64,000 nucleotides of DNA. Origin: a virus. Shown here piece by piece: positions 2,648 to 55,747 of the stretch. Every line of letters starts with the position of its first letter. Position 1 is the first letter of the stretch. The stretch spans positions 1 to 64,000 of the IMG/VR virus record IMGVR_UViG_3300049020_000031; one strand, given 5' to 3'. Both the position numbers and the translations under genes were made by a program. The notes beneath the pieces were generated by a model, which had not been told where the DNA came from, did not search any database, and saw only the letters and a program-made list of their open reading frames with translations.

Positions 2648-2656
2648 AGAGTTATT

Positions 2657-2797
2657 AGGATAGATGCAGCAATCTATAACAATGGAATTTGAGAACTAAG
2701 GGTTCGAGCCCCTTTCTAGTGAGCAATCACTAGGTGGCGAAATTGGTAAACGCATCAAATGTTTTGGGTCGAAAGACCTGCTATCCTGTTAAAATTT
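2657..2797 (+). ncRNA. tRNA-like RNA module 1 (YrlA-type Y RNA candidate)
   Basis: The outer stem is AGGATAG (2657-2663) with CTATCCT (2781-2787). A CAGCA box lies at 2667-2671. The T-arm is 2698-2714 with loop TTCGAGC. An acceptor-like stem, TCTAGTG (2715-2721) with CACTAGG (2728-2734), is capped by a GCAA tetraloop. The D-arm is 2737-2753 with loop AAATTGGTAAA. An anticodon-stem-like helix is ATTTGA (2687-2692) with TCAAAT (2755-2760), and a GGTC-GAAA-GACC hairpin follows at 2767-2778. The tail is TGTTAAAATTT (2787-2797). The T half precedes the D half, so this is not a normal tRNA gene. The arrangement and the nearby Ro60-like gene fit a bacterial Y RNA of the YrlA subfamily, which mimics tRNA. 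No CCA end exists because the acceptor stem is closed. Confidence 0.78.
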
Positions 2798-2896
2798 GGA
2801 ATGTGCGCAGCAAATAAAATTGCAGGTTCGACTCCTGTTATGAATGGCAACGTTCATAACTTTGCCCATGGAAGGGCATCACATTCCGTTAAATTT
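2798..2896 (+). ncRNA. tRNA-like RNA module 2 (YrlA-type Y RNA candidate)
   Basis: The outer stem is GGAATGTG (2798-2805) with CACATTCC (2880-2887), 8 perfect pairs. The CAGCA box is at 2808-2812. The T-arm is 2822-2838 with loop TTCGACT. The acceptor-like hairpin is GTTATGAA (2837-2844) with TTCATAAC (2853-2860), 8 perfect pairs and an 8-nt loop. The D-arm stem GCCC/GGGC spans 2864-2877 with loop ATGGAA. The tail is GTTAAATTT (2888-2896), which can re-pair with AAATTT at 2792-2797 and extend the stem past a 3-nt bulge. This is the shortest module (99 nt) and lacks a separate anticodon-like helix. It begins exactly where module 1's tail ends. Confidence 0.78.
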
Positions 2897-3029
2897 GGGT
2901 TCCGTTCAGCAACTAATTTTCAATCAGCCTGTCGCGGGTTCGAGCCCCGCATAGTTCCTTGGGACTATTAGCTCAGTTGGGAGAGCAGCCGACTCATAAA
3001 AAAGTGAACCCGTTATTTTGAAGTTTTTT
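2897..3029 (+). ncRNA. tRNA-like RNA module 3 with Met-like CAU loop
   Basis: The outer stem is GGGTTC (2897-2902) with GAACCC (3006-3011). The CAGCA box is at 2907-2911. The T-arm is 2934-2950 with loop TTCGAGC. The acceptor-like stem is ATAGTTC (2951-2957) with GGACTAT (2962-2968), capped by CTTG. Then come T8/A9-like TA and a textbook D-arm GCTC-AGTTGGGA-GAGC (2971-2986). GCCGA (2988-2992) can pair with TCAGC (2924-2928), with one mismatch. The following CTCATAA (2993-2999) equals a tRNA-Met anticodon loop. The tail is GTTATTTT from 3012. It is the most tRNA-like of the four modules. Confidence 0.76.
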
Positions 3030-3180
3030 GGATCGATACAGCATACTTAAATGTATATCAAATTGAAATCATGAGGTTCGATTCCTCATAGCCCACCTGG
3101 TGGGTTTGGTCTAGTGGCAGGACATCATTCCCGAAAGGGGCAGCAGGCCGGGATGTTCCCGGAACGATCCAGTAAATGAT
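3028..3180 (+). ncRNA. tRNA-like RNA module 4 (YrlA-type Y RNA candidate)
   Basis: The outer stem is TTGGATCG (3028-3035) with CGATCCAG (3165-3172), 8 pairs including one GU. The CAGCA box is at 3039-3043. The T-arm is 3072-3088 with loop TTCGATT. The acceptor-like stem is AGCCCA (3090-3095) with TGGGTT (3101-3106), closed by a 5-nt loop. The D-arm is GTCT-AGTGGCA-GGAC (3109-3123). Two extra hairpins follow: CCC-GAAA-GGG (3130-3139) and CCGGGA-TGT-TCCCGG (3148-3162). ACATCATT (3122-3129) is also complementary to AATGATG (3175-3181), a possible alternative fold. No clear anticodon-like helix is seen. Confidence 0.7.
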
Positions 3181-3208
3181 GAGCGGAGCAATCCGCTCAT
3201 CGCCTTTT
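3178..3208 (+). terminator. Rho-independent terminator of the RNA array
   Basis: GATGAGCGGA (3178-3187), GCAA loop, TCCGCTCATC (3192-3201), then GCCTTTTG. A 10-bp stem with a tetraloop and a short T run. Confidence 0.8.
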
Positions 3209-3247: not shown

Positions 3248-3736
3248 ATGAATATACGTGACTTGAAATCCAAATTTGCGTCTTGGTTGATGCGCGACGC
3301 TATCAACCAAGAGGTTGACCTGCAAGTGAAGAAGTTCTTCGACTCTCGAAACCAGGATCGGCAGAGTTTTCGAGAACACGAGGCGCAATCACGACTTGGT
3401 AAATTGTGGATCGTAGTGTCCAATGAAATCGAAGATATCAGGGTGTGTTACGGGAAAGAATTCATGTTTATCACTATGGATAATACGCCGGCCGTGGTGT
3501 TCCATGATGTGGTAACGGGCGAGGACTTGATATGCGGTGGTGCTATTCTGGCGTATAATGAACAACGATATCTAGCTCTAGTTGGGATGGACCCCAACGC
3601 TAGAATTTCCCTATTCTTCAATCGCGAAGAACACAAACCTACCGATAAAACCAAAACACAAGCCAGGCCAACCACTCCCGTCAGCGAACAGATTGAAAAA
3701 ACTCGCCTCGCTGTAGAAAAATTCATAAAAGTGTAG
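3248..3736 (+). CDS. Hypothetical protein between the RNA array and the Ro60-like gene
   Basis: 162 aa, not recognised. The N-terminal 45 residues are highly charged and probably helical. The middle (about 55-125) is beta-rich (KLWIVVSNE, EFMFITMDN, AVVFHDV). The C-terminal tail is rich in Thr, Pro and Lys and looks disordered. There is no signal peptide. Position between a Y-RNA-like array and a TROVE gene makes a role with that RNP possible, but nothing in the sequence proves it. Confidence 0.75.
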   Translation: MNIRDLKSKFASWLMRDAINQEVDLQVKKFFDSRNQDRQSFREHEAQSRLGKLWIVVSNEIEDIRVCYGKEFMFITMDNTPAVVFHDVVTGEDLICGGAILAYNEQRYLALVGMDPNARISLFFNREEHKPTDKTKTQARPTTPVSEQIEKTRLAVEKFIKV

Positions 3737-3838
3737 TTGCCAGGTTTTCCAGGTGCTACAATGCATTCCTCACAGATAATGAAACCCAGGTTGGGTTCAG
3801 CAAACTCAATTTAACCAACCAGTAAACAAAGGAACAAT

Positions 3839-5245
3839 ATGGATCTCGCAAACGCATTCAAGGCTCAAGAAACCACCACCACGAACGGTATGGCCGCTCT
3901 CCAGTCCACCATGGACTCTAACGTGGACCTGTTCTTCAAGATTGGTGCAAGCCGCGGAAAAAACATTGTTCCTCAGTTCACCGCAGCATTCGTGGAAAAT
4001 CGCGAACTGGCTCTGCGTATCGCGCTGTGGGCACGTGACGTTCGCGGTGGTGCAGGTGAACGTCAACTGTTCCGTGATGTTCTGAACTATCTGGAGGGTG
4101 TCGATCCTGATGCAGCTCGCTCCCTGATTCTCTCGACTCCTGAACTGGGTCGTTGGGATGATCTCCTGATTGTGAAGACTCCAGCTCTCCGCGACCTGGC
4201 GTTCAGCTTGATCAAGGCCGGTCTGGAATCCCAGAACGGTCTGTGTGCAAAGTGGATGCCACGTAAGGGCAAGGATGCTGAAGCTCTGCGAGCATACCTG
4301 GGATACAGCCCAAAGCGCTATCGCAAGACTTTGGTTACCTTGACGCAAGTCGTGGAAACCCAAATGTGTGCCAAGGATTGGGATAACATCAACTTCTCCC
4401 ACGTTCCTTCCGTGGCCGCTGGCCGTTACCGCAAGGCATTCAAGAAGAATGCCGAAGAAGCATACACGAAGTATGCTGAAGGTCTGGCTACCGGTGAAAC
4501 CAAGATCAACGCTGGTGCGGTGTTCCCTTATGATGTCCTGAAGGGCAACATGAATGGTTACCAACGAGCAACTCTGACCAAGGTTGAACGCGATGTGATC
4601 TTGGCTCAGTGGGCTGCACTGGAAAATGTGGTTGGTGATGCCAAGATGTTGCCTATGGTTGACGTGTCCGGCTCCATGAGCTGCCCAGCTGGTACCAAGA
4701 GCTCGGTGACTTGTATGGACGTGGCTGTGAGCTTGGGCCTGTATCTGGCTGAAAAGAACACTGGTTCGTTCCGTGATATGTTCATCACGTTCACGGAACA
4801 ACCAACTCTGTATGCTCTGAAGGGTAACGTGTTGGATAAGCTGGACCAGATGACTGGACAGGTTGGTTACAACACGAACCTGGAAGCCGCGTACGATGCG
4901 TTGCTGAAGGTCGCAGTAACCTCCAAGGTTGCTCAGGAAGACATGCCTGAGTACATTGTGATGTTGTCGGATATGCAGTTTGACGGTTGCACTGGTCGCC
5001 CAACGGCTTCCGCGATCGACATGATCCGTGACAAGTACAAGGCTGCTGGTTACACCGCTCCAAAGGTGGTGTTCTGGAACATCAACGCGCACGACAATGT
5101 GCCAGTGAAGTTCAATGATCTGGGCGTTGCTCTGATCAGCGGCTTCTCCCCAACGATCGTTAAGTCGGTCCTGACGGCACAGAAGTTCAGCCCACAAGGC
5201 ATCATGTTGGAAGCTGTGATGTCTGATCGCTACAAGCCACAGTAA
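3839..5245 (+). CDS. Ro60-like TROVE/vWA ring protein (TROVE or DUF2828 type)
   Basis: 468 aa, near the usual 500-540 aa of Ro60/Rsr. Ro60 orthologues form a HEAT-repeat ring with a vWA domain. They bind Y RNAs and misfolded RNAs, and in bacteria they partner PNPase or RNA-repair enzymes. The N-terminal part (residues 1-265) is all-helical and contains IALWARDVRGGAGERQLF, matching the ARDxRGGxGER block of TROVE/DUF2828 proteins. The vWA domain starts near 272 with the MIDAS motif DVSGSM (Asp275), a Thr in GYNTNL and Asp in LSDMQFD, so metal binding looks intact. AAAGGAACAAT precedes the ATG, and a strong terminator follows. The tRNA-like RNA array about 0.6 kb upstream supports the Y RNA-binding reading. 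Confidence 0.85.
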   Translation: MDLANAFKAQETTTTNGMAALQSTMDSNVDLFFKIGASRGKNIVPQFTAAFVENRELALRIALWARDVRGGAGERQLFRDVLNYLEGVDPDAARSLILSTPELGRWDDLLIVKTPALRDLAFSLIKAGLESQNGLCAKWMPRKGKDAEALRAYLGYSPKRYRKTLVTLTQVVETQMCAKDWDNINFSHVPSVAAGRYRKAFKKNAEEAYTKYAEGLATGETKINAGAVFPYDVLKGNMNGYQRATLTKVERDVILAQWAALENVVGDAKMLPMVDVSGSMSCPAGTKSSVTCMDVAVSLGLYLAEKNTGSFRDMFITFTEQPTLYALKGNVLDKLDQMTGQVGYNTNLEAAYDALLKVAVTSKVAQEDMPEYIVMLSDMQFDGCTGRPTASAIDMIRDKYKAAGYTAPKVVFWNINAHDNVPVKFNDLGVALISGFSPTIVKSVLTAQKFSPQGIMLEAVMSDRYKPQ

Positions 5246-54712: not shown

Positions 54713-55747
54713 TCAGACGTCGCTGACCTTCAATTTATTTACCGTCATGGGGCCGCGCTGCCAATGATGGGCTGATGGTTGAACGTGATCTTTTCTCACA
54801 AACTTGGCAACACTTCCGCGAAATTGAGAATAAGCAAATTCATCAGCCAATCGAACCACATAACCTTCACAAGTTTTGGAACTCTTGGTTTTCCACAGTG
54901 CTCTGATTGCCTTTTCATCCCAGATACCATCGTACCACACGGGCACTTGTTCAATATCAAGAAGTTGGAAGAATTGAACAGTGGTATCCCAATCCAAGCA
55001 AACGTTCCGTTCATTCCAAATGCTGTAGCCCATAACGTATGAATTCAGGGAATCATACTCAATGGAATGTTTGGCGTACAGGTTTTCCAAACAGATTCGC
55101 CAATATTCCGGAATATCACCACATCGTTTCGCCCACTCGGCCTTCATCCAGTTTCTGGAGGGGTGATTCTTGCTGTCAACGCTTCGGGCATGGCAATAGT
55201 CCTGATACCATGTGGTATTTTCACCATCCATCTTCTCGGTGACTATGACTCTTCGACCTTCGAACTGACTCACGGATTCAATCATACGATCATCCGATGT
55301 CATGTTTTCCGACCATGGGAGATGGTAAGTTCTTGGATATTTGACGTGATGGGTGAAGTCTTTCAGGAATCCACCAGAATTCAGAATCTTCTGAACCGAC
55401 TCATCAAAGAACAGATCACCCTTGAGCCTTTGACCATTTGGCATGACTGGGTTTCCCCACTTGTCATATTCTTGGTCTGGGTATAGGTGTGGGGGAATTG
55501 GAAACTTGGTGATGCCACAGGCGTCACGAACTTGACTCAACGAAATCGTGGTCTGTTCACAGAGGATGTGATGTTCTTCACAAACTGATGCACCGTTCTC
55601 CAGATAGTAACCACCGTCTGGCCACAGTTTTCGTTCCATTATGTGATGGGCATCCTTTGCGTCTTTGTCACAGAAGACGCATTTGTGATTGTCGCGAGAG
55701 AAAACACCTTCTCTGAAGTCGTCGCGTGATAAGAGTTTGAATGCCAT
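54713..55747 (-). CDS. HNH domain fused to RNA ligase
   Basis: 344 aa. Residues 20-63 are an HNH-type zinc module: CVFC, then AHHIMERKLWPDGG and CEEHH. Residues 165-325 are an Rnl2-like RNA ligase: motif I EKMDGEN with nucleotidyl Lys172, motif III-like MGYSIWNER, motif IV EGYVVR (294-299) and motif V KFVRK (315-319). RNA ligases reseal nicked RNA, for example tRNAs cut by host anticodon nucleases. The HNH part may be a nuclease or only a zinc scaffold, since it keeps the paired Cys and HH/H residues. It is the best protein link to the RNA-repair theme of the window. Confidence 0.88.
   Translation of the reverse strand: MAFKLLSRDDFREGVFSRDNHKCVFCDKDAKDAHHIMERKLWPDGGYYLENGASVCEEHHILCEQTTISLSQVRDACGITKFPIPPHLYPDQEYDKWGNPVMPNGQRLKGDLFFDESVQKILNSGGFLKDFTHHVKYPRTYHLPWSENMTSDDRMIESVSQFEGRRVIVTEKMDGENTTWYQDYCHARSVDSKNHPSRNWMKAEWAKRCGDIPEYWRICLENLYAKHSIEYDSLNSYVMGYSIWNERNVCLDWDTTVQFFQLLDIEQVPVWYDGIWDEKAIRALWKTKSSKTCEGYVVRLADEFAYSQFRGSVAKFVRKDHVQPSAHHWQRGPMTVNKLKVSDV

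Follow-up and report, generated by a model that had tools for sequence, protein, structure and literature searches.

Bacterial Y RNAs are mostly known singly, and the purpose of their tRNA-like domain is unsettled. The closest described systems to the element studied here are the YrlA RNAs (RF02553) of Salmonella, other bacteria and some phages, which are 90-150 nucleotides (nt) long, form a terminal stem from their 5′ and 3′ ends, carry a permuted domain composed of a T-arm, an acceptor stem with a closed loop and a D-arm, and lie beside a Ro60/Rsr gene. For bacterial YrlA the stem is assigned to Rsr; the tRNA domain is bound by PNPase and serves tRNA-modifying enzymes as a substrate (PMC8394870). 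A similar division of labour, with a stem for the Ro60 ring and a separate effector end, is found in the RYPER complex (Rsr-Y RNA-PNPase) of Deinococcus radiodurans. We analysed a stretch of 64,000 nt (hereafter the window; positions 1 to 64,000 of the virus record IMGVR_UViG_3300049020_000031 of IMG/VR), in which four tandem tRNA-like modules (2657-3170, + strand) precede a gene encoding a Ro60-like protein of the DUF2828 family. The modules, their permuted order, the covariation of their base pairs and their association with the Ro60-like gene are all evident from sequence comparison, and we consider it probable (about 80%) that the feature is an array of YrlA-type Y RNAs partnering the adjacent Ro60-like protein.

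The four tandem permuted modules had been claimed by a preliminary description made from the letters alone, and all of their announced parts could be located: an outer stem of 6-8 bp formed by the 5′ and 3′ ends of each module, as in YrlA, a CAGCA box shortly after the stem start (at 2667, 2808, 2907 and 3039), and the order T-arm, closed acceptor hairpin, D-arm in all four. With 131, 90, 115 and 141 nt, the modules also have the length of YrlA RNAs. Module 1 (2657-2787) is closed by AGGATAG/CTATCCT (2657-2663/2781-2787) and carries its CAGCA box at 2667-2671; it retains a 6-bp anticodon-type stem (2687-2692/2755-2760) and a 5-nt variable loop together with a T-arm (2698-2714), an acceptor hairpin with a GCAA loop (2715-2734) and a Leu-like D-arm (2737-2753), and has an extra GAAA hairpin. 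Module 2 (2798-2887) is the compact one, with the outer stem GGAATGTG/CACATTCC (2798-2805/2880-2887), CAGCA at 2808-2812, a T-arm at 2822-2838, again a GCAA-capped acceptor hairpin (2839-2858) and a D-arm at 2863-2878. Module 3 (2897-3011) combines the stem GGGTTC/GAACCC (2897-2902/3006-3011) and CAGCA at 2907-2911 with a T-arm (2934-2950), an acceptor hairpin with a CUUG loop (2951-2968) and a D-arm (2971-2986). In module 4 (3030-3170; stem GGATCG/CGATCC at 3030-3035/3165-3170, CAGCA at 3039-3043), the T-arm (3072-3088) is followed by an acceptor hairpin with a tight 3-nt loop (3090-3106), a Glu/Gly-like D-arm (3109-3123) and extra hairpins that precede the 3′ strand of the outer stem. The acceptor stems of modules 1 and 3 (7-8 bp), their T-stems (5 bp) and their two-base link between acceptor stem and D-arm have tRNA-like dimensions. 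The pairwise identity of the modules is only 47-53%, indicating that they are not recent duplicates.

A strict core scan of the 64 kb asked for a 5-bp T-arm with a TTCRA loop, immediately followed by a closed hairpin, and for a D-arm whose loop contains GG; it returned four matches, all in the array, against none in ten first-order (Markov) shuffles, both strands included. No complete core and no convincing additional Y module was found elsewhere in the 141.5-kb record. ARAGORN called no ordinary tRNA in place in the window. When modules were rotated, i.e., opened in the loop of the acceptor hairpin and re-joined at the Y end, a tRNA was called in 20 of 22, including three of the four of the window, against none of the unrotated modules and none of 440 shuffled sequences; as the rotated sequences were extended by CCA and introns of up to 60 nt were accepted, this test measures overall shape and not tRNA function. 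A plain tRNA prediction with the halves in their correct order, named by the preliminary description as a refuting outcome, fails. The sole match at the gathering level of Rfam, to tRNA (2962-3095), is a chimera of the D-half of module 3 and the T-half of module 4, and it was rejected.

Since the 3′ half precedes the 5′ half, as in the permuted tRNA genes of some algae and archaea, the modules might be circularised and cut into ordinary translating tRNAs. Their rotation into tRNA folds, the near absence of ordinary tRNA genes from this genome and an ACCA in the acceptor loop of modules from phages S13 and phiM12 could be read in this sense. However, the acceptor stems of the window are closed by tight loops of 3-4 nt without CCA, no processing leader is present, and in place of the anticodon arm there is a Y stem with the conserved CAGCA. 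Together with the strong linkage of the modules to the Ro60-like gene, this makes such an origin of translating tRNAs very improbable.

The terminal stem and the core could be followed in relatives. With the Ro60-like protein as query, 80 viral loci were fetched (loci are cited below by their L numbers); the loci compared in this study are partly inter-related, so that counts over loci do not represent independent events. A first scan, for CAGCA next to any stem, produced far too much noise. The signature used in its place, with the opposite strand as control, consists of at least 6 pairs with GG near the start, 2-5 nt, CAGCA, the complement 45-190 nt further on and then (T)GT/GTT. Over 867 kb, this signature occurs 110 times on the strand of the gene and once on the other. 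The thresholds of the module finder were chosen manually; its rate of false positives was judged from the reverse strand and from shuffles. Because the signature itself selects for pairing, we tested the terminal stem a second time on modules anchored on TTTA...CAGCA and CTGTTRA: 34 of 46 have at least 6 contiguous end-to-end pairs, compared with a mean of 3.6 and a maximum of 10 when partners were re-dealt. The consensus over loci reads AGGAT...CAGCAA around the box and CCT-GTT at the 3′ end.

Covariation in homologues, the check proposed by the preliminary description, turned out to be strong for the core. From 29 candidates, 26 permuted cores were picked by terminal stem and GTTCRA; L011_3293 (an ordinary tRNA end) and L057_4723 (without the pattern) were left out by eye, as was the near-duplicate L034. 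In these cores, 90.4% of the cells are paired (62.8% after shuffling), and the covariation score is 0.745 against 0.218, a value reached by none of 500 shuffles. Changes on both sides were observed in 13 of the 14 core pairs, and sliding the partners by one column halved the pairing. The relatives include isolated phages, i.e., phiM12, GAP32, Kaldavass, JH2, DyoEdafos, ZJGS3 and KP13-26. Such double compensatory changes contradict decay, and they argue against the view that the array is the functionless remains of a broken or recombination-rearranged tRNA cluster. The tRNA-like fragments, their low mutual identity and the location of many relatives within tRNA clusters would suit that view, but the order is identical four times, the terminal stems and linkers are conserved across very different tRNA bodies, and the linkage to the gene is same-strand in 59 cases and opposite in none. 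We regard this origin as extremely unlikely.

The presumed partner (3839-5245, + strand) is a protein of 468 amino acids matching Pfam DUF2828 and DUF7788 as well as PHROG 850 (‘RNA-binding protein’), whereas it does not match Pfam TROVE, and a profile search of PDB sequences found no Ro60 chain. Its AlphaFold2 model (pLDDT 75, pTM 0.72) nevertheless identifies it as Ro60-like: all nine matches at E <= 0.001 in a fold search of the PDB are Ro60/TROVE structures, including classical Ro autoantigens, Deinococcus Rsr and a Thermus phage Ro60. The modelled protein consists of a TROVE-type ring of HEAT repeats and a vWA domain, whose metal ion-dependent adhesion site (MIDAS) DVSGSM is conserved in 31 sequences. 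The Ro60 gene suspected near the array is thus present 0.67 kb downstream on the same strand.

This proximity to a Ro60 orthologue, typical of YrlA-type RNAs, is general over the loci. A search that used no protein information, only DNA patterns spanning a module-module junction, recovered 117 loci, 59 of which hold a Ro60-like gene within the fetched stretch; in all 59 the gene is on the strand of the motif, which mostly lies 90-700 nt upstream. The last module mostly ends 22-200 nt before the start codon and often abuts the ribosome-binding site. The window itself has a further element with the same geometry, overlooked in the preliminary description: a mini Y hairpin (GGTTGG-GTT-CAGCA-...-CCAACC, 3789-3820, + strand), the fifth Y element of the locus, located 18 nt before the start codon. 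The proximity of the last module to the ribosome-binding site and the mini hairpin of the window would also suit a self-regulating leader, which is a partial rival: the array would act mainly in cis, Ro60 binding its own mRNA and shutting down its synthesis, and the tRNA bodies would matter little. But the main array of the window is 0.67 kb upstream, behind an open reading frame (ORF) and a hairpin, modules lie downstream of the gene in phages S13 and Ci1 and far from it in KVP40 and GAP32, and the selection on the tRNA bodies requires a role of their own. We therefore consider a mainly cis-acting leader unlikely, if clearly less so than either of the two tRNA-gene origins discussed above.

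The same DUF2828 family, represented in 681 phage records, was also met in contigs binned as bacterial. DUF2828 genes with weaker Y-like stems upstream are present in an Endomicrobium metagenome-assembled genome (MAG) contig (L105:146-503) and in two Roseiflexaceae MAGs (L099 and L100); these contigs may be prophages or misbinned phage sequences.

Several observations weigh against assigning the array to YrlA-type Y RNAs with a Ro60 partner. The Rfam YrlA model recognises module 3 (2927-2989, 33.5 bits, E 2e-5) and module 2 (19 bits), but both scores are below the gathering threshold of 69, which no module of a phage relative passes either. The model also matches ordinary tandem tRNA genes. 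In the window, an unrelated ORF of 162 amino acids without family match (3248-3736, + strand) separates the array from the Ro60-like gene, and the modules are of the elbow/acceptor type, without the anticodon stem-loops that underlie the decoy idea elsewhere (see below). The folding energies of modules 1, 3 and 4 are unremarkable (z about -0.5 to -1.9); thermodynamic folding was dropped as a sole argument, since module 2 alone stood out (z = -5.3). Rfam E-values were likewise rejected as proof, the YrlA model giving matches in 9-13 of 14 control genomes, and a search of E. coli with the Rfam YrlA consensus gave no match.

Core scan, covariation and rotation agree on the permuted domain of T-arm, acceptor stem and D-arm, and the structural and genomic traits of YrlA-type RNAs that can be tested were all found except for the Rfam score, for which reason we do not file the modules as plain YrlA. 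They differ from YrlA in the conserved text of the stem (AGGNNNN-nnn-CAGCA ... CCT-GTT), in the direct tandem of four modules with different tRNA bodies and in a partner from the DUF2828/DUF7788 branch of Ro60; the array form, the distinct stem and the DUF2828-type partner are probably new. In the literature searched, no array is described for RYPER. A similar phage case is that of Listeria phage CKA15: within 2 kb upstream of its Rsr-like gene, and on the strand of that gene, RNA-seq revealed three non-coding regions with very high transcription, which rank with the most transcribed early loci, and the Rsr-like protein was found in purified virions (PMC12282133). The window shares with CKA15 the several non-coding RNA units just upstream of such a gene; we compared CKA15 by the description in that paper and examined the sequence of the related phage AG20. 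However, Y RNAs are one of several explanations considered by the authors, who give no structure (PMC12282133), and this tentative mention, based on expression, is the only one of phage Y RNAs in the literature we searched.

Tandem arrays are not a peculiarity of the window. With relaxed calling (gaps of up to 45 nt) over 102 distinct loci and the window, the coding strand has arrays of two (29), three (15), four (7), six (1) and seven (1) modules, whereas the reverse strand gave five single calls and no array. As 44 of 89 module-bearing loci have arrays of 2-7 modules, such arrays are therefore general in this phage group, and the four-unit tandem, which the preliminary description could not place in any described system, is not unique. 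Among the arrays found, only that of the window has four tRNA-like modules in unbroken succession; L055 has four tRNA-like modules among seven. No Y RNA array was found in the literature searched, outside of which the central Y RNA papers lie, so that an earlier description is possible. The largest array (L055:3637-4700) consists of seven tandem modules, with two more, upstream of a Ro60-like gene. At the locus whose Ro60-like protein is closest (65%), one Y module, TGGATCAG-ATA-CAGCA, stands alone 27 nt before the gene and has no recognisable tRNA core (L001:4845-4965). Long modules (150-210 nt) that likewise lack a tRNA core occur in L011, L022-L032 and others.

The same Y stem is joined to other tRNA parts in related phages. 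Genes of 113-124 nt annotated as tRNA-Ser, tRNA-OTHER or tRNA-Pseudo in Cronobacter phage S13 (L086:4855-5105), Citrobacter phage Ci1 (L092:4855-5090), KVP40 (L111:1882-2128 and 3679-3794) and Aeromonas phage Ahp1 (L093:832-945) encode tRNA bodies in which a closed Y hairpin with CAGCA/CTGCA replaces the anticodon loop, e.g., GCAAACT-GATA-AGTTTGT-ATT-CAGCA. Like the modules of the window, they join a tRNA body to a stem with CAGCA or CTGCA behind it; unlike them, they have the halves in normal order, with open tRNA ends, often carrying CCA, and a Y stem capped by a short loop at the position of the anticodon loop. Topologically, such a tRNA-Y hybrid and a window module are one and the same circle, cut open at the acceptor end in the hybrid and at the Y end in the module. 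In S13 and Ci1, a permuted module directly follows the hybrid. Four further modules (L006:4028-4117, L041:889-1001, L044:4688-4806 and L075:4815-4905), with a T-loop near their 3′ end, apparently enclose a tRNA-like body, or parts of it, in normal order. Among the short modules (up to 70 nt), 41 of 84 contain a hairpin with a 7-nt loop, T33 and a purine at 37 (e.g., TTTGA-CTTTTAA-TCAAA), against 2.6 in shuffles, and in their sequence these hairpins look like bare anticodon stem-loops. Mini modules of 50-66 nt in the range L002-L089 (e.g., L011:1485-1545, L035:1899-1960, L053:1642-1703 and L066:25-86) carry what look like isolated anticodon stem-loops, with UUU, UCU, UGU, UGA and other anticodons.

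Being both the constant part and the only part common to all kinds of modules, the CAGCA terminal stem, conserved across phages, would be the handle bound by Ro60, and the circularly permuted tRNA body, which is under base-pair selection yet freely exchanged, would be the effector end. The array is presumably transcribed as one unit, processed and bound by Ro60, with the AT-rich GTTAAATTT linkers as candidate cut sites that would turn the common transcript into units; left uncut, they would yield a chain carrying several Ro60 rings. The tRNA bodies are most likely mimics that, held on Ro60, would tether or soak up host enzymes recognising tRNA, such as PNPase, the enzyme of the Deinococcus RYPER, or the nucleases with which hosts counter phages by cleaving tRNA; either target would serve the RNA-repair equipment of the phage (RtcB, RNA ligase, RlaP, Pth2 and Macro). 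We give somewhat less than even odds to the proposal that the array serves mainly to decoy or tether enzymes acting on tRNA.

The tRNA-Y hybrids and anticodon mini modules of the relatives suggest that Ro60 displays tRNA decoys or tethers. A narrower and slightly less probable version has the displayed parts soaking up the anticodon nucleases of the host or further defence proteins that act on tRNA. The frequent anticodon-like hairpins of the short modules point in this direction, as do the RtcB, RNA ligase and RlaP genes of the phage, a tool set attributed to the repair of cleaved tRNAs (PMC7824862), and the presence of a Ro60-like protein in Listeria phage virions (PMC12282133). A competitive-inhibitor role of YrlA versus an anticodon nuclease has been suggested as an alternative, but the anticodon nuclease of Salmonella reportedly does not accept YrlA as a substrate (PMC7790460), and the elbow and acceptor parts displayed in the window come without an anticodon loop. 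Tentatively, then, the modular Y RNA arrays of large phages might constitute a decoy library carried by Ro60 and directed at host defences that cut tRNA, in which a constant Ro60 handle would be combined with interchangeable tRNA parts (bodies in either order, elbows or single anticodon stem-loops). The early transcription and the virion Rsr-like protein of CKA15 fit a role at the start of infection.

These phage arrays are natural sets of one handle with varied tRNA parts. Their presence in cultivable carriers (phiM12, KVP40, GAP32, felixounaviruses and Listeria phages) makes the role of Y RNAs testable, whether as tRNA decoys, nuclease tethers or Ro60 regulators, and they could account for the ‘pseudo-tRNAs’ long annotated in phages as well as for the DUF2828 ‘RNA-binding protein’ family.

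The array is framed by two candidate expression signals, which had been presented as promoter and terminator. The position of the sigma70-like promoter (TTGAAA-16-TAGAAT, 2620-2647, + strand) is suggestive, with a start predicted at ~2654, roughly where module 1 begins; the number of such sites, however, is not above chance (2 versus 2.3 expected). At 3178-3208 (+ strand) there is indeed a GC-rich hairpin of 9 perfect bp, possibly a weak terminator; termination is uncertain because its T tail (GCCTTTT) is short and weak and the terminator scan was not passed.

The record has a T4-type major capsid protein. A Macro-domain protein gene (2054-2623, + strand) lies directly upstream of the array, close to that of the peptidyl-tRNA hydrolase Pth2 (1226-1636, + strand). 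An RNA ligase is encoded at 54713-55747, the nucleotidyltransferase RlaP at record positions 97813-98700 (L095:13813-14700) and RtcB, which accompanies Ro60 and Y RNA here as it does YrlA, at 105681-106904 (L096:1681-2904). The set of RNA ligase, RtcB and RlaP together with a TROVE protein has been read as jumbo-phage equipment against host tRNA cleavage (PMC7824862). In Sinorhizobium phage phiM12 (L108), a permuted module, a Macro gene and a DUF2828 gene are neighbours as in the window; its modules lie at ~1949-2076 and 690-830, the second being permuted with ACCA in the acceptor loop. The few ordinary tRNA-type calls in the record itself amount to one tRNA-Pyl with the anticodon CTA (111849-111923, minus strand; L096:7849-7923), the sole ordinary tRNA and possibly an amber suppressor, and one transfer-messenger RNA (tmRNA) of the permuted type called by ARAGORN (125769-126195, minus strand; L097:1769-2195), with the tag ANDNSYNQAIAA.
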